From: Anaerolineae bacterium
GTDB taxonomy: Bacteria; Chloroflexota; Anaerolineae; 4572-78; J111
Assembly: GCA_016926805.1 (NCBI GenBank)
Contig: JAFGNV010000061.1
Location: 1-52,542, forward strand
Direction of reading: 5' to 3'
DNA: 52,542 nt
Under the pieces are notes generated by a model. The model searched no databases and was not told the origin of the DNA. It saw nothing but the letters and a program-made list of their open reading frames with translations. Positions 6,746 through 15,047 of this stretch are shown here, in pieces (the stretch's first letter is position 1; every line of letters starts with the position of its first letter). The position numbers and the translations under genes are program-made.

Positions 6746-9700
6746 ATGTCATTAACCCCGCAGCAGTGGAAACAGCAGGCGCAGCAGAAACTCCGGCAGG
6801 CCGGAGGTTGGTTCAAACGCCGGGCGACGCAGGAGGCACCCTATCTGGTTTATGGTACGCTCGGCGGTTTGAGTCTGTGGCCGCTGGTGCAAGCGGCGCA
6901 AACGGGTGGCCTAACCCCGGTCGAGGTCGGCATCGCCCTGGGCGGTGTGGCCGGGTCGGTGGGCACCAATTTGCTGGCCAACCAGATTCAAAGCTGGAAA
7001 GACCGGGCTAAAGGTCCGGACGAGGACGAGGTGGCCCGCTGGCTGGCCAAAAATGCAACTGAGAGTGAAGCATTGCGTGAAGCCCTGGATACGCTCCTGG
7101 AACAAATGGACGCGATCACCCAGGCTCAGGCCGGCTTAAGCGAGGCCGACCGGCAGTGGTTTCTGACCACGCTGCACGCCGAATTGGCCGGGCTGGGCAA
7201 TTTGCCCCGTTTTGAGGCTACCCTCAAAGGCTCCGGCCTGATTGTGCAGGGAGACAGGGCGATCGGTATCCAGCAGAAAAAAGAGAGCCTGGCCATTGTT
7301 GGCAGCCGGATTGAGGGCGACGTGTTGGGGCCGGGAGCCAGCAAAACCGAGGTCCTCGCACCGAAAGAACCCGGCCCCACGCCCGATGACCTGCGCCGGG
7401 CTTATTTGAACCAGTTATTTGAAACCACTGGTCGCCTCTCGTTGGCCGGGATTGACCCCAAGGCGGCCAGCGAAGCCGAAGCCCGGCTGAACCTGAGCGC
7501 CATTTACACCGCCCTGCTTACCCAACGTGCCGACGTTGAGCGAGACATCGAACTGCGCCCTCGCGAAACCTTGGCCCGGCGGATGGAGGCGGAAGCCGCC
7601 CGCGAGCCGCGCCGTTTGTCGGCCCTGGCCCAGTTGAACCGCCAGGCCAGGTTGGTGCTGTTGGGCGATCCCGGCAGCGGCAAAAGCACCTTTGTCAACT
7701 TTGTCACCATGTGCCTGGCCGGAGAAGCGTTGGGACGCCCCCGCACCAATTTGACCAAACTGACCGCGCCTTTACCCGATGATGAGGGCCAGGACCAAGA
7801 AGAATTGCAACCGTGGGAGCACGGCCCTTTGCTGCCGGTGCGGGTGATTTTACGCGACTTTGCCGCGCGCGGTCTGCCGCCGGTGGGCCAAACGGCCACG
7901 GCCAGACATTTGTGGGATTTTATTGTGGCCGAGTTAGACAGTGTGGGCCTGGCCGACTTTGCCCCCTGCCTGCGGCAGGAATTGATGCAGCAGGGCGGTT
8001 TGTTGCTGCTGGACGGGTTAGATGAAGTGCCCGAGGCCCATCAACGCCGGGTACAATTGCGGGAGGCCGTGGAAGGTTTTGCCAGCGCCTACCCCCGCTG
8101 CCGGGTGTTGGTCACCAGCCGCACCTATGCCTACCAGCAGCAGGCGTGGCGTTTGCCCTCCTTTAGCGAAGCCGTGCTGGCCCCCTTTAGCGCCGGGCAA
8201 ATCCGGCGTTTTGTGGACGGCTGGTACGCCCACATAGCCGAGTTGCGCGGCCTGCACCCCGACGATGCCCAGGGCCGGGCCGAGTTGTTGAAGCGGGCCA
8301 TCTTTGGTAGTACTCGCCTGGAAGCCCTGGCCGAACGCCCCCTGCTGCTGACGCTGATGGCCAGCCTGCACGCCTGGCGCGGCGGCAGCCTGCCGGAAAA
8401 ACGGGAGGAACTGTACGCCGATACTGTGGACTTATTGCTGGATTGGTGGGAAAGCCCCAAAACCGTGCGCGATGCCGGGGGCCAGGTGATGGTGTTGCAG
8501 CCCAGTCTGGCTGAGTGGCTCAAAGTGGACCGGGCCAAAGTGCGCGGTTTGCTCAATCAGTTGGCCTACCAGGCCCACGCTGCCCAACCTGATTTGAGGG
8601 GCACGGCCGACGTGGATGAGGGGTTGCTGGTTAGTGAGCTGATACGCCTGAGCCAGAACCCCGAGGTGAACCCGGCCCGGTTGATTGAATACCTCAGCCA
8701 GCGGGCCGGGCTGTTGCTGCCGCGGGGGGTGGGGGTGTATACCTTTCCCCACCGCACCTTTCAGGAATACCTGGCCGCCTGCCACTTAACCGACCACGAT
8801 TATCCCGACGCCGTGGCCGAACTGGCCCGCGCCGAACCGGACCGCTGGCGTGAGGTGGCGCTGCTGGCCGGGGCCAAGGCGGCGCGGGGCACGGCTTCGT
8901 CCATCTGGTTGTTGGCCGAGGCGTTATGTTTTAGAAAACCGGGGGCCGCCAACGCCGCGCTGGCTGATGTGTGGGGCGCGTTGATGGCCGGGCAGGCCCT
9001 GACTGAAACAACCGATTTGACGCAAATCAGCGAGCGCAACCAGGCCAAAGTGGCGCGGGTGCAGCATTGGCTGGCGCATCTTATCTCCGGCAGCGACCTG
9101 CCGGCAGTGGAGCGGGTATCTGCCGGGGTAATGCTCGCCTACTTGGGCGACCCCCGCCCAGGGGTGGGATTGCGGGCCGATGGCTTGCCCGATATTACCT
9201 GGTGCGAGATACCGGCCGGGCCATTTTTGATGGGAGATGATAAGCAAAAAGTAACCCTGCCCGCTTACAAGATGAGCCGGTATCCGGTAACCAATGCCCA
9301 ATTCAAGGCGTTTGTCGAGGCCGGGGGGTATCAAGAGGCAGCATTCTGGACGGAGGCCATTGAGGCGGGTGATTGGCGCAAGGGACAGGTAAAACGATCT
9401 GTTCCCTTTTTTGAAAGCGGCGATGTTAAGTGGCGGGATGAATGGGCCAACGCCCCCTATGATTATGGCTCCCCGTTTAACCTGGCCAACCATCCGGTGG
9501 TTGGCGTTAACTGGTATGAAGCGTTGGCTTTCTGCCGTTGGTTGTCGGCCCAATTGGGGGAGCAAGTGATACTACCGGATGAAACTCAGTGGGAAAAAGC
9601 GGCCCGGGGTGACGATGGGCGGGAGTACCCCTGGGGAGATGAGGCCGACCCGGAGTGGGCTAATTACGACGAGACCGGCCTTGGTGCTACCAGCGCGGTG

Positions 9701-9928
9701 GGCTGTTTTGGCGGTGGGGTCAGTCCTTATGGCTGTCTGGATATGGCCGGGAATGTGTGGGAGTGGTGCCAGGATTGGTATGATGAAGATAAGGATTTCC
9801 GGGTGTTGCGGGGCGGGTCGTGGCTCAGCTATCAGTTCAGCGCTCGCTGCTCCTACCGCGGCAGCAGGTGGCCGCTCAACGTCAGGGACTACGACTTTGG
9901 TTTTCGGCTGGTGGTCTCCCCCCTTTGA
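6746..9928 (+). CDS. NACHT NTPase with C-terminal FGE/C-type-lectin domain (DGR target A)
   Basis: A 1060-aa STAND-type protein. Order: amphipathic N terminus with a hydrophobic Gly-rich stretch (residues 35-80, GIALGGVAGSVGTNLLANQI), the Q-rich module ending GDVLGPGASK (~165-205), a NACHT ATPase with Walker A GDPGSGKS (307-314), Walker B LLLLDGLDE (419-427) and a VTSR sensor, a helical arm (YTFPHRTFQEYLAACHL), then a formylglycine-generating-enzyme-like domain (~818-1060: IPAGPFLMGD, PVTNAQFKAFVEAGG, HPVVGVNWYEALAFCRWL, DMAGNVWEWCQDW, LRGGSW). FGE-family domains adopt the C-type lectin fold used by known DGR variable proteins. Residues 1028-1058 are the variable repeat. GGAGGG lies before the ATG. 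Likely role: ligand-sensing conflict protein; function is inferred from family. Confidence 0.88.
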   Translation: MSLTPQQWKQQAQQKLRQAGGWFKRRATQEAPYLVYGTLGGLSLWPLVQAAQTGGLTPVEVGIALGGVAGSVGTNLLANQIQSWKDRAKGPDEDEVARWLAKNATESEALREALDTLLEQMDAITQAQAGLSEADRQWFLTTLHAELAGLGNLPRFEATLKGSGLIVQGDRAIGIQQKKESLAIVGSRIEGDVLGPGASKTEVLAPKEPGPTPDDLRRAYLNQLFETTGRLSLAGIDPKAASEAEARLNLSAIYTALLTQRADVERDIELRPRETLARRMEAEAAREPRRLSALAQLNRQARLVLLGDPGSGKSTFVNFVTMCLAGEALGRPRTNLTKLTAPLPDDEGQDQEELQPWEHGPLLPVRVILRDFAARGLPPVGQTATARHLWDFIVAELDSVGLADFAPCLRQELMQQGGLLLLDGLDEVPEAHQRRVQLREAVEGFASAYPRCRVLVTSRTYAYQQQAWRLPSFSEAVLAPFSAGQIRRFVDGWYAHIAELRGLHPDDAQGRAELLKRAIFGSTRLEALAERPLLLTLMASLHAWRGGSLPEKREELYADTVDLLLDWWESPKTVRDAGGQVMVLQPSLAEWLKVDRAKVRGLLNQLAYQAHAAQPDLRGTADVDEGLLVSELIRLSQNPEVNPARLIEYLSQRAGLLLPRGVGVYTFPHRTFQEYLAACHLTDHDYPDAVAELARAEPDRWREVALLAGAKAARGTASSIWLLAEALCFRKPGAANAALADVWGALMAGQALTETTDLTQISERNQAKVARVQHWLAHLISGSDLPAVERVSAGVMLAYLGDPRPGVGLRADGLPDITWCEIPAGPFLMGDDKQKVTLPAYKMSRYPVTNAQFKAFVEAGGYQEAAFWTEAIEAGDWRKGQVKRSVPFFESGDVKWRDEWANAPYDYGSPFNLANHPVVGVNWYEALAFCRWLSAQLGEQVILPDETQWEKAARGDDGREYPWGDEADPEWANYDETGLGATSAVGCFGGGVSPYGCLDMAGNVWEWCQDWYDEDKDFRVLRGGSWLSYQFSARCSYRGSRWPLNVRDYDFGFRLVVSPL
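9827..9920 (+). other. DGR variable repeat A (VR_A)
   Basis: The last ~31 codons of the first NACHT-FGE gene align with the template at 13973-14064. Outside one 3-base insertion (GTC at 9881) all 16 differences are at template adenines, for example AAC to AGC, TTC, GGC, TAC, CTC and GAC, and ATT to TTT. The A-free blocks GCTCGCTGCTCC (9842-9853) and GGTTTTCGGCTGGTGGTCTC (9899-9918) are unchanged. The latter, at the 3' end of the gene, is in the position of an initiation-of-mutagenic-homology site. Confidence 0.85.
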
Positions 9929-9937
9929 GCTTCTGGC

Positions 9938-10436
9938 TTCTGGAATCACTGAATCACTGAAAGGAATGAATTCACTGAAGAGTTCATCAGCGTCCTCAGA
10001 AACTCAGTGTCTAGTGTTTCTGAGTCACTGAATCACTGAAAGGAATGAATTCACTGAGACATTCATCAGCGTCCTCATCAAACTCAGGGTCTCAGTGTTT
10101 CTGAATCACTGAAAGGAATGAATTCACTGAGACATTCATCAGCGTTCTCATCAAACTCAGGGTCTCAGTGTTTCTGAATCACTGAAAGGAATGAATTCAC
10201 TGAGACATTCATCAGCGTCCTCAGAAACTCAGTGTCTAGTGTTTCTGAGTCACTGAATCACTGAAAGGAATGAATTCACTGAAGAGTTCGTCAGGGTCCT
10301 CACCAAATTCAGTGTCTCAGTGTTTCTGAATCACTGAATCACTGAAGGAAAATGATGTCACTGAATCCTTTGTCAGTGCCCTCAAAAAATTCAGCGTTTC
10401 AGTGCTTCAGGGCTTCAGTGTTTCAACAACCCTATC
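9938..10436 (+). repeat. Tandem 73/79-bp hairpin repeats, array 1
   Basis: Five close copies begin with AAGGAATGAATTCACTGA at 9961, 10040, 10113, 10186 and 10265, giving periods of 79, 73, 73 and 79 bp. A diverged sixth copy starts near 10345. The 79-bp units differ from the 73-bp ones by an extra 6 bp of the GAATCACT motif. The 73-bp units contain the 9-bp inverted repeat CACTGAGAC and GTCTCAGTG about 28 bases apart, so each can fold as a hairpin. The array follows VR_A directly. No gene is seen inside it. Confidence 0.9.
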
Positions 10437-10454
10437 CAACAAAAGGAAACCGAT

Positions 10455-10841
10455 ATGAGTCAACCATACGTAAAGACAGAATATCCCCTCTCGGAAATAA
10501 CATCCCGGATTATCGCGGCAGCCCAAGAAGTTCACCGCCAGCTTGGCCCGGGTTTTGAGGAAGTTATCTACCAGCGCGCCCTGGCCCGCGAGTTGCCCGC
10601 GCAGCAACTCGAATTCAGCCGCGAGGTCTGGATTGACGTGCTTTACAAGGGCGAAAAAATAGGACGCAAGCGAGTCGATTTTATGGTTGAGGAAGTTATG
10701 GTAGAAATCAAAGCCAAAGCAGAACTGGATGCCGTTGCTTTTGTTCAAACGTTGTCCTATTTGAAAGCCAGTGGCTACAAGATAGGTTTGCTGCTCAACT
10801 TTGGCGGAGTAAAATTGGAAATCAAGCGGCTGGCTAATTGA
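10455..10841 (+). CDS. GxxExxY-family protein
   Basis: A 128-aa protein of the GxxExxY family, named for the motif visible as GPGFEEVIYQRAL (G-F-E-E-V-I-Y). The later pattern RVDFMVEEVMVEIKAKAEL (D-x(n)-E-I-K) resembles a PD-(D/E)XK nuclease core, so a nucleic-acid-cleaving role has been suggested for the family but is not proven. AAAGGA precedes the ATG. It lies between two repeat arrays and between the two NACHT-FGE genes. It is not a reverse transcriptase and does not resemble the small helical DGR accessory protein Avd. Confidence 0.82.
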   Translation: MSQPYVKTEYPLSEITSRIIAAAQEVHRQLGPGFEEVIYQRALARELPAQQLEFSREVWIDVLYKGEKIGRKRVDFMVEEVMVEIKAKAELDAVAFVQTLSYLKASGYKIGLLLNFGGVKLEIKRLAN

Positions 10842-10847
10842 AACGGG

Positions 10848-11098
10848 ATTTTGAATCACTGAATCACTGAAGGAAAATGATGTCACTGAAGCCCTTGTCA
10901 GTGCCTTCAAAAAATTCAGTGTTTCAGTGCTTCTGGAACATTGGACCACTGAGGGAGGATGAGGACCCTGAGCCTTCCTATCAGCGTCCTCACCAAATTC
11001 AGTGCCTCAGTGTTTCTGAATCACTGAATCATTGAAAGGAATGAATTCACTGAGACATTCATCAGTGCCCTCAGAAATTCAGTGTCTCAGTGTTTCAT
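10848..11098 (+). repeat. Repeats related to the 73/79-bp array, array 2
   Basis: Diverged units of the same family lie between the GxxExxY gene and the second NACHT-FGE gene. The stretch from 10850 closely matches 10330-10405 (GAATCACTGAAGGAAAATGA with TGATGTCACTGAA), and the one from 11020 matches the canonical unit (AAAGGAATGAATTCACTGAG). ATGAATTCACTGA gives an in-frame upstream ATG for the NACHT gene, but this is repeat DNA and not the likely start. Confidence 0.85.
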
Positions 11099-11121
11099 CG
11101 CCCTCACCCAAAGGAGTCATC

Positions 11122-13779
11122 ATGACCGATGATCAAACTGAACTACAGAAAGTAGAAGCTGCCATCGCCGCCCAGCAAGCCCTGCTGGGCAGCGGGGTAT
11201 TGCCCGACGCGCAAATTGAAGCCACCCTGGCCGCGCTGCACAACAGGCGGGACATCCTGATCAAACAGGGTCACCAGGCGCAGGCGGTGGTAAAGAGCCA
11301 GGTGACGGGTGATGTGCTGGCCGCGAATGCCCGCAAAACAACCTATATCATTAACGTTACCGCCGAAGCCTTCTGGCAACAGTATTCCGCCGTTCTGGCC
11401 GAGTTATCAACGGCGGATTTGCAGCAGGCCACCAAAGTCTATTTAACCCAGTTGGTCGACCGTTACCAATATCTGGATTTTAAGGGCATGGGGGTGTCTG
11501 ACCGCGTGCCGTTGCGCATGCCGTTGTTAGAGATGTATGTGCCGCTAAAGGCCCGGATAGAAATGCCCGAAGGCGACACCTGGAGCCACCAACTGCGGCT
11601 GGCCGGGCGGCAGGTGAGCCAGGAGGAAGCCGAGGCTATGGGCCAGCGCTTGAGCGAACCACAGCCATTGGTAACTTTGTTGGGCCAGCACGATGGCCTG
11701 ATAATCTTGGGTGATCCCGGCGCAGGTAAAACCACATTTCTTAAAGTGCTGACCTTACGCCTGGCCCTGGGCGAAGGCGAAGCCCTGGGTTTGGGCCAAC
11801 GGCTGCCCATTTTGGTGCCGTTATCGGCCTATGCCAACGCCCTGGATGCCCACGATATTCCCCTGGACGAATTTGTGGCCACTTACTACCGGGAACGCGG
11901 CTTGAAATTGCCCATTGCCGCCATGCTCAGCGAAGCCCTGGCCCAAGGGGGCGCCTTGTTGTTGTTGGATGGCCTGGATGAAATCCGGGACCTGGCACGT
12001 CGCCAGTTGGTGATGAGCCGCCTGGTAGACTTTTTTACCTTTCAGCGCCGCCAGGGTAACAAATTTATCCTCACCAGCCGGATTGTGGGCTACCGCGACG
12101 TGCGGCCCACCGTGGCCGGACTGGCCGAATGTACCCTGGTTGATTTTGATCACGCTGAAATTACCCAATTTGTCAATCAATGGACCGCCGCCGTGGAACG
12201 CGCCGCCCGGGGCGATACCGCCATTGCCGCCGCCGAAGCCGCCCGCGAACGCAGTGAATTGCTGGCATCGGTGGAGCGCAATCCGGGCGTGCGCCAGTTG
12301 GCGGCCAACCCGCTGCTGCTCACCATTTTGGCCCTGATGAAACGGCAGGGCATCACCCTGCCGGAACGGCGGGTGGAGTTGTACCAAAAATATGTGGAAA
12401 CCCTGCTGCGCCACTGGAACCTGGCCCGCGGCCTGGATGGCCGGGCCAGCCGCGATTTAGACGTGGTGGAAACCACGCGGGTGCTGGCCCCCCTGGCCCT
12501 GTGGATGCACCAGACCAGCCCCGGGGTGGGCCTGGTGAAACGGGAGGCGGTGCGGCGCAAACTGGAAGAGATTTACGCCGAACGCGGCGAACCCGACCCC
12601 GAACAGGCAGGGCGACAACTGCTCAGCGATGCCCGTGAATACGCCAGCCTGTTGCTGGAGCGCGGCGCGGGCATGTACGGTTTTATCCACCTCACCTTTC
12701 AGGAATATCTGGCCGCGGTGGCCATTGCCCAGCGCGGCCAGCAAGATGTAAAACCCGTGGTCCAGGCCCTGGCCGACCATATTGCCGACGACAACTGGCA
12801 CGAAGTGAGCTTGCTGGCCATTGGCTACCTGGGCATTGTCCAGCAACGTGACGAAGCCGCCGGGATGGCCCTGCGCGATTTGATTCAATTAGCGCCGGGT
12901 GAGCCGGGCCAGGCCACCATCCTGGCCGGAGAAGCCGCGCTGGACGCCTGGCCGGGCGGGGTGACCCCGGCCTGCAAAAAGGCTGTGATCGAGGCGTTGC
13001 AAACCGCTATGGTGGACACCGCCGTGAGCCTGCCCCGGCGGGCCAAAGCCGGGCAGGTGTTGGGCCGGTTGGGCGACCCGCGGGCAGGGGTAACGACGTT
13101 ACCCCCATTATTGACTCCCGTCCTTGAAGGCGAGTTTTTGTATGGCGATAGCAAAAAGAAACGCGGGGTAAAACCTTTTCAGGCGGGTATCTACCCCATC
13201 ACCAATTCCCAATTTGCCCATTTTATTGAAGCGGGGGGATACAATGAGGCAACGTGGTGGAGCAGGGAAGGCTGGCAGTACCGGCAACAGGCGAAATGGA
13301 CGCAACCAAGATTATGGGATGATAGTAAATGGAATATCCCCAACCATCCGGTAGTGGGGATCAGTTGGTTTGAGGCCGAGGCTTTTTGTAATTGGCTCTC
13401 GGCGGAGTATGGACAGGCCTACCGTTTACCGGCTGAAGCGGAGTGGGAGCGGCTAGTGCGGGGGCAGGATGGGCGCGAATTTCCGTGGGGGGATAGGTGG
13501 CAGGATGGCGTTAGTAACACCATAGAAAGTAGAATTGGACAGACCTCGGCGGTGGGCATGTTCCCGGCCGGGGTTAGCCCCAGTGGGGCCTACGACTGCG
13601 CCGGGAATGTGTGGGAGTGGGGCGCGGATTGGTATTATGAAGATAAGGATAGCCGGGTATTGCGGGGCGGCGCGTGGGACTACGATCTGGACTACGCTCG
13701 CTGCTCCTACCGCAGCAGGGACTATCCGAGCCTCAGGGTCGACGACCTCGGTTTTCGGCTGGTGGTCTCCCCCATTTGA
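11122..13779 (+). CDS. NACHT NTPase with C-terminal FGE/C-type-lectin domain (DGR target B)
   Basis: An 885-aa protein with the architecture of the first NACHT-FGE protein but a shorter N terminus: a coiled helical pair (residues 1-50), the module VVKSQVTGDVLAANARK (~53-72), a NACHT ATPase with Walker A GDPGAGKT (197-204) and Walker B LLLLDGLDE (279-287), a sensor LTSR, a helical arm with FIHLTFQEYLAAVAIAQ, and an FGE-like domain (~665-885: YPITNSQFAHFIEAGG, HPVVGISWFEAEAFCNWL, DCAGNVWEWGADW, LRGGAW). Residues 854-884 form the variable repeat. The start at 11122 has AAAGGAG 8-9 bases upstream. The earlier in-frame ATG at 11032 lies in repeat DNA. Probably an ATP-dependent ligand-sensing switch; the output effector is not evident. 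Confidence 0.88.
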   Translation: MTDDQTELQKVEAAIAAQQALLGSGVLPDAQIEATLAALHNRRDILIKQGHQAQAVVKSQVTGDVLAANARKTTYIINVTAEAFWQQYSAVLAELSTADLQQATKVYLTQLVDRYQYLDFKGMGVSDRVPLRMPLLEMYVPLKARIEMPEGDTWSHQLRLAGRQVSQEEAEAMGQRLSEPQPLVTLLGQHDGLIILGDPGAGKTTFLKVLTLRLALGEGEALGLGQRLPILVPLSAYANALDAHDIPLDEFVATYYRERGLKLPIAAMLSEALAQGGALLLLDGLDEIRDLARRQLVMSRLVDFFTFQRRQGNKFILTSRIVGYRDVRPTVAGLAECTLVDFDHAEITQFVNQWTAAVERAARGDTAIAAAEAARERSELLASVERNPGVRQLAANPLLLTILALMKRQGITLPERRVELYQKYVETLLRHWNLARGLDGRASRDLDVVETTRVLAPLALWMHQTSPGVGLVKREAVRRKLEEIYAERGEPDPEQAGRQLLSDAREYASLLLERGAGMYGFIHLTFQEYLAAVAIAQRGQQDVKPVVQALADHIADDNWHEVSLLAIGYLGIVQQRDEAAGMALRDLIQLAPGEPGQATILAGEAALDAWPGGVTPACKKAVIEALQTAMVDTAVSLPRRAKAGQVLGRLGDPRAGVTTLPPLLTPVLEGEFLYGDSKKKRGVKPFQAGIYPITNSQFAHFIEAGGYNEATWWSREGWQYRQQAKWTQPRLWDDSKWNIPNHPVVGISWFEAEAFCNWLSAEYGQAYRLPAEAEWERLVRGQDGREFPWGDRWQDGVSNTIESRIGQTSAVGMFPAGVSPSGAYDCAGNVWEWGADWYYEDKDSRVLRGGAWDYDLDYARCSYRSRDYPSLRVDDLGFRLVVSPI
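13681..13772 (+). other. DGR variable repeat B (VR_B)
   Basis: The last codons of the second NACHT-FGE gene align with the same template. 15 of 16 substitutions outside one 9-base block are at template adenines (AAC to TAC, AGC, CTC, GTC, GAC; AAT to GAT; CAG to CTG). The exception is the last base of ATT to CTC. Template codons 14009-14017 (AAC AGG AGG) do not align base by base with AGG GAC TAT here, so a slightly different template version or an indel pair is implied. The invariant blocks GCTCGCTGCTCC and GGTTTTCGGCTGGTGGTCTC are intact. Confidence 0.82.
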
Positions 13780-13789
13780 ATTTCTGGCT

Positions 13790-13972
13790 TCTGGCATCAC
13801 TGAAGCACAGAGAGGGATGAATTCACTGAAGGTTTTATCGCAATACCGCGAAAGTAACACAGGAAAGTGGCATAAACCCCCATTTTTCCCTGAGAAATAG
13901 GGGAGCGTTGGGCGACTTTTGCTGAACTGCGTTTTATCAGTGTTATCAAAAAGATCAGTACCTCAGTGTTTC
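13790..13972 (+). repeat. Degenerate repeat array 3 leading into the template
   Basis: Starts with TTCTGGCTTCTGG then ATCACTGAA, the same sequence that follows VR_A at 9930. It continues with a degraded unit (GATGAATTCACTGAAGG) and an unrelated insert with a GGAAAGTGG stretch. It ends CCTCAGTGTTTC, the usual end of a 73/79-bp unit, directly abutting the template repeat. No gene is seen. Confidence 0.7.
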
Positions 13973-14064
13973 AACAATCAGAACAACGCTCGCTGCTCCA
14001 ACCGCAACAACAGGAGGCCGAACAACAGGAACAACAACATTGGTTTTCGGCTGGTGGTCTCCCA
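13973..14064 (+). other. DGR template repeat (TR)
   Basis: Eleven AAC codons and one AAT, in the frame that aligns with the two NACHT-FGE gene ends, are interrupted by invariant GCTCGCTGCTCC (13988-13999), CGC, AGG and CCG. It ends with GGTTTTCGGCTGGTGGTCTC (14042-14061). The translated pattern is N-N-Q-N-N-A-R-C-S-N-R-N-N then R-R-P-N-N-R-N-N-N-I-G-F-R. AAC codons are typical of DGR templates because adenine-directed mutation of AAC can reach many residues without making stop codons. Differences from both gene ends are almost wholly at adenines. The block after the match changes from TCTCCCCC in the targets to TCTCCCAC, like the IMH versus IMH* distinction. There is no start codon or function as a gene. 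Confidence 0.85.
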
Positions 14065-14147
14065 CGTTTTGTTAATTGGGCATTTATCGTCCCCCGCCAG
14101 CAATGCCACGGATCAAACATTGGCTATAGCTGTTCAGATAATGTTTT

Positions 14148-14182
14148 CAGGTAGAGACAGGACATTGTCCTGTCTCTACCTG
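14148..14182. repeat. 35-bp perfect palindrome (copy 2)
   Basis: Two perfect 17-bp arms, CAGGTAGAGACAGGACA and its complement, flank a single T. It has the same skeleton as the palindrome at 2583-2613, with compensating changes in both arms (GGG to GAG; GAAT to GGAC). Conservation of pairing rather than sequence indicates a dispersed hairpin family. It lies 84 bp after the template repeat. Confidence 0.8.
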
Positions 14183-14362
14183 GCAGAAATCCAAATTTTT
14201 TCTGAATATCTATCGATGCGTGGCCGAGGCCGTCTGATACAATCAGAATAACAAAATGGCGCGGCCTGTCAGTCTCCTGCGGGAGGTTGTTTTTGGTGGG
14301 CAAACCCGCCAAAACGCCCGGCCGGTGCTGGGCGCGGGATGGCACCGGGCGCATAAACAAAA

Positions 14363-14433
14363 GCCACGCCCCCTCTGGTAGCGTCGCACGCTTCGCCTGC
14401 TTACGCCGCAAAGGTTGGGGCGTGGCGTTTTTT
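14363..14433 (+). terminator. Candidate terminator closing the DGR region
   Basis: A perfect 10-bp stem, GCCACGCCCC (14363-14372) with GGGGCGTGGC (14417-14426), encloses a 44-base structured loop and is followed by GTTTTTTG. A second hairpin, CCCCAA-CT-TTGGGG, follows at once. It could end transcripts that run through the NACHT gene and template repeat. The rest of 14183-14468 holds no gene I can recognise. Confidence 0.5.
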
Positions 14434-14468
14434 GCCCCAACTTTGGGGTAACCATTTTTCGGATCAAA

Positions 14469-15047
14469 CTATATCCTCATTGCCACCTCTATCGGTTTTC
14501 TCTGGCCCAGATAAGCATAGAGCGTCGGCCTGGAAATCCCCAAAACCCGGCAAATCTCCTTGATGGTATGCTTCTTTTCATTATATAATTTATAGACCAA
14601 CTCTATCTTGGTTTTGTCCAGGGCCTTTGGCCTGCCCCCTTTTCGCCCTCTGGCCCGCGCCGCAGCCAATCCTGCCTGGGTGCGCTCCCGGATAAGATTG
14701 CGCTCAAACTCGGCCAACGCGCCAAAAATCTGAAATACCAAGCGTCCACCACTGGTCGTGGTGTCGATAGCTTCCTGCAAACTCCGAAAGCCAACCCCTC
14801 GTTCTTCCAATTGGGTCACGGTTTCAATCAGGTGCTTGAGGGACCGGCCCAAGCGATCCAGCCGCCAGACCAGCAAGGTATCCCCTTTTCGGGTGTATTG
14901 CAAGGCTTCTTGCAGGCCCGGACGTCCGGTCTTGCTGCCGCTGATTTTATCCCGAAAGATTTTTTCACATCCCGCCTTCTGCAAAGCATCCACTTGCAGG
15001 GATAGATTTTGGTCGAGGGTGGAAACACGGGCATAACCAACCAGCAT
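14469..15047 (-). CDS. Serine recombinase (resolvase/invertase family)
   Basis: A 192-aa small serine recombinase. The catalytic domain starts MLVGYARVSTLDQNLSLQVD, with the nucleophilic Ser in YARVST, and continues with GCEKIFRDKISGSKTGRPGL, LLVWRLDRLGRSLKHLIE and GGRLVFQIFGALAEFERNLI. The C-terminal Hin-type helix-turn-helix is KHTIKEICRVLGISRPTLYA. Length and order match complete resolvases. It faces the DGR region and may be part of a transposon or an inversion system, though no paired crossover sites were identified. Confidence 0.92.
   Translation of the reverse strand: MLVGYARVSTLDQNLSLQVDALQKAGCEKIFRDKISGSKTGRPGLQEALQYTRKGDTLLVWRLDRLGRSLKHLIETVTQLEERGVGFRSLQEAIDTTTSGGRLVFQIFGALAEFERNLIRERTQAGLAAARARGRKGGRPKALDKTKIELVYKLYNEKKHTIKEICRVLGISRPTLYAYLGQRKPIEVAMRI

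Follow-up and report, generated by a model that had tools for sequence, protein, structure and literature searches.

Introduction

In the diversity-generating retroelement (DGR) of Bordetella phage BPP-1, the variable repeat (VR) lies at the 3′ end of a target gene encoding a protein of the C-type-lectin fold. The sequence between its template repeat (TR) and the brt gene folds and recruits bRT-Avd, and an internal adenine primes cDNA synthesis (PMC12875486, accessible portion). Action in trans and loci without a reverse transcriptase (RT) gene have been proposed earlier (PMC10907252, accessible portion). In the literature that we searched, which took in little of the subscription literature, we came across no account of RT-less loci in which a local TR is retained together with the folded RNA.

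Here we analyse a locus of this kind. The window is the whole of one contig (C114; 52,542 bases) of a draft Anaerolineae genome (G000; 222 contigs, 95.6% complete, 5.17% contamination). A preliminary description had taken an adenine-rich segment of the window for the TR of a DGR. The segment is indeed a TR, paired with two VRs, and the way in which they differ is accounted for by adenine-directed mutagenic retrohoming, but the locus is not a self-sufficient DGR, as neither RT nor Avd was found on the 52.5-kb contig.

Results

The TR (13973..14064, plus strand) is rich in AAC and ends in TCCCACG, like a second TR in this genome, on contig C26; the VRs read TCCCCC at this place. Its eleven AAC codons and one AAT are, as originally described, in register with the ends of two genes, which form VR1 (9827..9920, plus strand) at the 3′ end of target gene 1 and VR2 (13681..13772, plus strand) at the 3′ end of target gene 2. 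We tabulated mismatches against TR positions 13971-14063, which hold 29 adenines among 93 bases, and calculated hypergeometric probabilities. All 16 of the mismatches in VR1 fall on template adenines (P 1.8e-10), in agreement with the initial count, and VR1 equals the TR at every one of the 64 non-A bases; one additional 3-base unit of VR1 relative to the TR had gone unmentioned. If the comparison starts 5 bases further upstream, it takes in two non-A differences (P 7.9e-9). VR2 has 25 mismatches, 18 of them on template adenines (P 7.7e-7), and the seven others are the edge base 13971, five positions inside a 9-base block, and T14041, which bears out the earlier statement that VR2 differs mostly at template adenines outside that block. 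The A-free blocks GCTCGCTGCTCC and GGTTTTCGGCTGGTGGTCTC have the same letters in TR, VR1 and VR2, again as first reported. An IMH-like A-poor block is thus present at the 3′ ends of the TR and both VRs in the form of GGTTTTCGGCTGGTGGTCTC, which may act as the IMH.

The TR is the exact template of neither VR, given the 3-nt unit in VR1 and the 9-base block in VR2. By inspection, changes at A only would turn AACAGGAACAAT into this block; AACAGGAACAAT is the form found in the C26 TR and is also close to that of many relatives, so VR2 may predate the present form of the template, and was perhaps written while the template still carried the AACAGGAACAAT form. The block was considered as an argument against a DGR and rejected, since by inspection it would be accounted for by a template form already known. 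The C26 TR in its present form was likewise rejected as the template of VR2, as the two show 17 non-A differences over 84 bases; VR2 is closer to the local TR, with 7 over 93 bases. When VRs of the C26 TR were sought in this genome, the only match above noise was the TR at 13973-14064.

Both VRs terminate genes whose products combine a NACHT domain with a C-terminal FGE-sulfatase (C-type-lectin-like) domain. Target gene 1 (6746..9928, plus strand) encodes a 1060-aa protein (Pfam PF03781, E 2.4e-47; PF05729, E 3.2e-10), and target gene 2 (11122..13779, plus strand) an 885-aa NACHT-FGE protein (PF03781, E 1.7e-44; PF05729, E 8.9e-11). The FGE part of target 2 resembles formylglycine-generating enzymes, EgtB and the Treponema variable protein 2y3c (E 1.4e-8), which, with the Pfam matches, places the VR at the 3′ end of a gene of the C-type-lectin/FGE fold. 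PADLOC has no family for either target, and their role as immune sensors is a predicted one; antigen sensing has been proposed for such targets by Dore et al., who call testing still needed (PMC10907252, accessible portion). Protein searches gave no near-identical alleles of the targets among the matches listed, the best relatives being 76% and 77% identical. Two of the related proteins, P0003 (72% to target 2) and P0123 (64% to target 1), are both listed with an 8312-nt longest contig and are possibly a conserved target pair.

The two target genes are separated by an imperfect array of 73-79-nt repeats of the CACTGAATCACTGAA type (9931..11110), the core of which has 22 matches in the window against 0.85 expected. 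A small PD-(D/E)XK_3 gene (10455-10841) sits within this array. Diverged pieces of the same repeats flank the 193-nt gap between VR2 and the TR (13780..13972), on its left up to 13839 and on its right at 13933-13972. In the RT-bearing relatives that we read, RT and avd occupy the position of this gap. Just past the cassette lies a serine resolvase/invertase gene (14469-15047, minus strand), which could bear on rearrangement of the locus.

The feature extends further than the segment delimited in the preliminary description, running on to about 14433 as a conserved structured RNA that follows the TR. A structure shared downstream of the TR was found in 21 loci, of which 19 have an RT, one (C26) has an RT piece, and one (G001:C27) lies on a contig that ends before any RT. 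It consists, in order, of GCC/GGC closing a hairpin, a short linker, a GGCCG hairpin, GGGCAAATA and a terminator-like hairpin. In the RNA alignment 84.5% of cells are paired, compared with 65.8% after shuffling and 31-47% after sliding, and 24 of 29 pairs show changes on both sides. A covariance model seeded with 20 of these loci, G001:C27 and C26 among them, and built without the window was run on 90 loci, seed loci included, and matches 79 of them with E below 1e-3. In the window this model for the RNA downstream of DGR TRs matches 14264..14426 on the plus strand with 33.6 bits (E 8.7e-9), and the next-best match there reaches 12.7 bits; in the whole genome (5.3 Mb, E up to 0.01) the only other match is C26, which scores 115.1 bits versus the 33.6 of the window RNA. 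The matched region comprises a GGCCGG hairpin, GGGCgcATAAACAAAA and a long-looped hairpin (14363-14372 pairing with 14417-14426), after which comes a run of six T (14428-14433).

The 5′ part of the RNA (14096..14230, plus strand) was recognised by inspection only, from the pairing of GCC 14096-14098 with GGC 14228-14230 and of GCCACG 14105-14110 with CGTGGC 14219-14224. It falls outside the covariance-model match, probably because a palindrome (14148..14182) sits in its hairpin loop. This palindrome, of the AGAGACAGGACA-NN-GTCCTGTCTCT type, is a genome-wide repeat with 49 forward matches at up to 2 mismatches, and 0 for the control. Relative to the consensus the window RNA carries the palindrome and also a second, hairpin-rich insert, and another terminator-like site lies inside it at 14270-14289. 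Folded as a single sequence, 14064-14445 greatly exceeds its shuffled versions in stability (z = -7.0), which is probably due largely to the palindrome, and single-sequence folds are otherwise unexceptional (z -1.94 for C26 and -1.03 for window positions 14310-14435). As single folds are weak evidence, the case for the RNA rests on covariation. A simple terminator scan did not list the 14363-14426 hairpin among those it found, because the loop exceeds the limit of the scan; a promoter scan near the TR gave no plus-strand site upstream of it. Rfam searches returned no family in the stretches scanned around three such loci (E up to 0.05), nor on C26 apart from an intron described below.

No RVT_1 match was found on the 52.5-kb contig, tblastn with six DGR RTs gave nothing there, and five Avd queries had no match in the window at E 1e-3; neither the RT nor the Avd or other accessory protein of a complete DGR was thus found at the locus. 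The mutagenesis must therefore have used an enzyme encoded elsewhere, or one since lost from the locus. RVT_1 has two matches in the genome, and both were rejected as the enzyme. The RT gene on C22 (L001, G000:C22; 331 aa) is a weak match to DGR RT (71 bits) and is presumably of the CRISPR type, with a Cas1-like ORF directly downstream; the 1005-aa ORF on C57 matches DGR RT even more weakly (24.1 bits). A search of the assembly with a full DGR RT detected a single DGR-type RT, a 3′ piece with which C26 begins, corresponding to residues 238-353 of the query and 65% identical to the full DGR RT. It is followed by Avd (NF033474, 99.1 bits against a curated cut-off of 80) and then by the A-rich TR. 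The 5′ part of this RT was sought in the assembly and not found. The group II intron family RF00029 aligns through its 3′ end with bases 1-86 of C26 (28.3 bits, where the gathering score is 40; the contig end truncates the match), and the RT piece (87-446; L015 / L006) resumes directly 3′ of the intron end, right after the YVDD motif. From this arrangement, the C26 DGR RT gene looks to be interrupted by an intron at its active-site codons, with the assembly breaking within the intron. No group II introns were found in the other broken RTs that we looked at (G181, G063 and G053), which by inspection are deletions or contig ends.

We then surveyed 298 genomes drawn from the larger group of the class, with stricter filters in the RNA search and with no more than six RT candidates scored per genome, the weakest RT matches being left unlisted. 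The downstream RNA occurs at 91 places in 60 of these genomes (E up to 1e-5); a DGR RT match lies within 3 kb of 52 of these places, and 39 have none listed. Direct tblastn covered 37 of the 39, all but G001:C27 (contig end) and a second partial match on G036:C368. It revealed an RT beside G200:C210, which brings the places without RT to 38 of 91, and RT stubs at G029:C35 and G240:C1, while 34 of the 37 have no RT within 3 kb. Among these 34, 20 are flanked on either side by 3 kb or more of contig, and the remaining 14 are closer than that to a contig end. Units of target-VR, TR and RNA without RT or Avd match account for nine of the 37 places, and eight of the nine are at least 3.5 kb from both contig ends. 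They occur in eight genomes: that of the window, which has VR, TR and RNA with neither RT nor Avd like the rest, together with G036, G166, G181, G227, G232 (twice), G286 and G297, the last of which holds the weakest TR-VR pair of the nine (L211). DGR RT sequence is present elsewhere in six of the eight genomes, in G000 and G181 as pieces only; in G036 and G286 there are only weaker RT matches (112.6 bits; E 1.2e-19). A further six of the 37 places have avd but no full RT, one of them keeping a C-terminal piece of RT.

The adenine signature could be measured at 17 of the 37 RT-less loci, where 239 of 431 template adenines and 9 of 1254 non-A bases are mismatched, and at 53 RT-bearing controls, where the counts are 856 of 1547 and 17 of 4131 (Fisher P 0.17 for the non-A rates). 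The pair finder penalises non-A mismatches alike in both groups. Sixty-three of the 79 model-matched loci were entered as controls (the 16 omitted include L015, L014 and L028), and 53 yielded a pair. Three of the 17 RT-less loci with a pair (L213, L218 and L222) are no more than 400 nt away from a contig end; no pair was obtained for L211 in this measurement. The eight RT/Avd-less units that were measured have more non-A mismatches than the controls (7/574 versus 17/4131, Fisher P 0.02), an excess that points to somewhat older copying, and the six RT-less loci that keep avd have 2/524 (P 1.0). The RT-less RNAs keep their fold, with 92.7% of cells paired and changes on both sides in 22 of 29 pairs, in an alignment fitted to the model. 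When nine RT-less RNAs were compared with 34 RT-adjacent copies, the best copy from the same genome ranked in the top 5 for seven of them, whereas the remaining two had theirs in 24th and 32nd place. Five duplicate loci had been removed beforehand, and only the best own copy was counted.

Decayed DGRs also occur in the class, such as G036:C110, where a gene end is fused to the RNA, and G029:C35 with its RT stub; by inspection, the RT of G063 is internally deleted and that of G053 truncated. At G036:C110 (L138, 3555-4570) the end of an FGE gene is joined straight to the RNA, and neither a TR of its own nor an RT is present, the outcome to be expected if the direct repeats VR and TR had recombined. 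At another place, L232 (G277:C3), an FGE gene has an AAC-rich, template-like 3′ end (SWNNNQDNVRAANRNRNNPTNQNNN) some 150 nt before 379540, and the RNA (35.8 bits) follows directly; this repeat could be both template and target in one.

Discussion

Our study describes a locus with a TR and a structured RNA, without RT or Avd, that is likely a non-autonomous (satellite) cassette served by RT-Avd encoded elsewhere. The TR and the downstream RNA would be transcribed as far as the hairpin and the T6 that ends at 14433, perhaps forming a 3′ tail on the message of target 2. RT-Avd from another locus, for which C26 is a candidate, would bind this RNA and make cDNA with random bases opposite adenines, and the cDNA would overwrite the 3′ ends of both NACHT-FGE genes, varying the lectin-like sensor face of their products. 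By analogy with BPP-1, we infer that the RNA would be recognised in trans and that the cassette may be active at present. The RT of C26 lacks its 5′ part in the assembly and begins right after the 3′ end of a group II intron, which speaks against the trans reading, as do the low score of the window RNA (33.6 bits), its inserts and its extra terminator-like site. Also on this side of the balance are the inexact fit of the TR to either VR, the non-A excess of the RT/Avd-less units, the weaker RT matches of G036 and G286, and the two RNAs whose own-genome copies rank 24th and 32nd.

The low score and the inserts of the RNA also suit the main rival reading, in which an ordinary target-RT-avd-TR locus was recently orphaned by deletion of RT and avd through flanking repeats, leaving an inert TR and VRs that are frozen products. 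The 193-nt gap of the window, with pieces of repeats at both ends, coincides with the place that RT and avd take up in the relatives read, and MITE-like arrays have replaced RT genes in Thiohalocapsa (PMC10907252, accessible portion); decay of DGRs is seen within the class itself (G036:C110, G029:C35, G063, G053), and the RT/Avd-less units carry the non-A excess over controls reported above. We nevertheless hold such a fossil to be somewhat improbable, as TR and VR1 do not differ at any of 64 non-A bases, the RT/Avd-less layout with TR, VR and folded RNA is repeated in eight genomes, and six of those eight have DGR RT sequence elsewhere. The closeness of the adenine signature to that of RT-bearing loci, the kept folds, the RT sequence elsewhere and the similarity to own-genome copies lead us to favour service in trans over old fossils; recent loss remains its main rival.

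An artefact of assembly or strain, by which the real locus has an RT that the metagenome assembly missed, seems improbable to us. The genome is a draft in 222 contigs with 5.17% contamination, and RT loci do break contigs, C26 starting inside an RT and G166:C13 ending just after one; the TR, however, is separated from the two ends of its contig by 14 kb and 38 kb, the sequence from VR2 to the TR is continuous, and the same layout recurs in other assemblies. That the locus is no DGR at all, and the TR the decayed end of a third gene or a chance similarity, is very hard to sustain: the TR does align with the coding ends of two FGE genes, but the mismatches pile up on one template base (P 1.8e-10 and 7.7e-7) and RNA of the DGR type lies downstream. 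The preliminary description had already judged a decayed third gene or random divergence unlikely from the concentration on one base, and the RNA strengthens that judgement.

Beyond this locus, we tentatively propose that satellite DGRs may exist in Chloroflexota, in the form of compact, enzyme-free cassettes of target, TR and RNA that would spread hypermutation to extra immune-sensor genes. Such cassettes might display the RNA handle of the RT-Avd of their host, much as non-autonomous transposons use the transposase of a partner, an idea that we put forward with similar reserve. The downstream RNA is in any case a handle independent of RT, as the RNA model finds template cassettes without an enzyme, and surveys anchored on RT are blind to satellite cassettes. 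If the cassettes act in trans, many sensors could be diversified by a single RT, and counts of hypervariable sensors per genome have so far been too low.

The locus resembles the DGR of Bordetella phage BPP-1 in its A-directed TR/VR pair, in the RNA 3′ of the TR and in the position of the VR at the 3′ end of the target; BPP-1, however, has avd, TR and brt together, whereas no RT or Avd was detected on the contig of the window. The RT-bearing DGRs of relatives, L023, L024, L025 and L027, share with it the FGE-type target end, the codon pattern of the TR and the downstream RNA, but are ordered target-VR, RT, avd, TR, and the window has no RT and avd between VR and TR. In cyanobacteria, remote variable proteins likewise show parts of the system lying apart, with targets away from the RT (PMC7517822, accessible portion); there a distant target matches the TR of the DGR, whereas in the window TR and target are together and the enzyme would be distant. 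There is a likeness also to Thiohalocapsa PB-PSB1, which has NACHT and lectin-domain targets and RT-less loci, with MITE-like repeats in the place of the RT gene, and for which action in trans was proposed (PMC10907252, accessible portion). The VRs of Thiohalocapsa DGRs 4 and 5 match the remote TR of DGR 2 (same source), whereas the window keeps a local TR and RNA, with VR1 fitting the local TR at every non-A base and VR2 fitting it better than the TR of C26.
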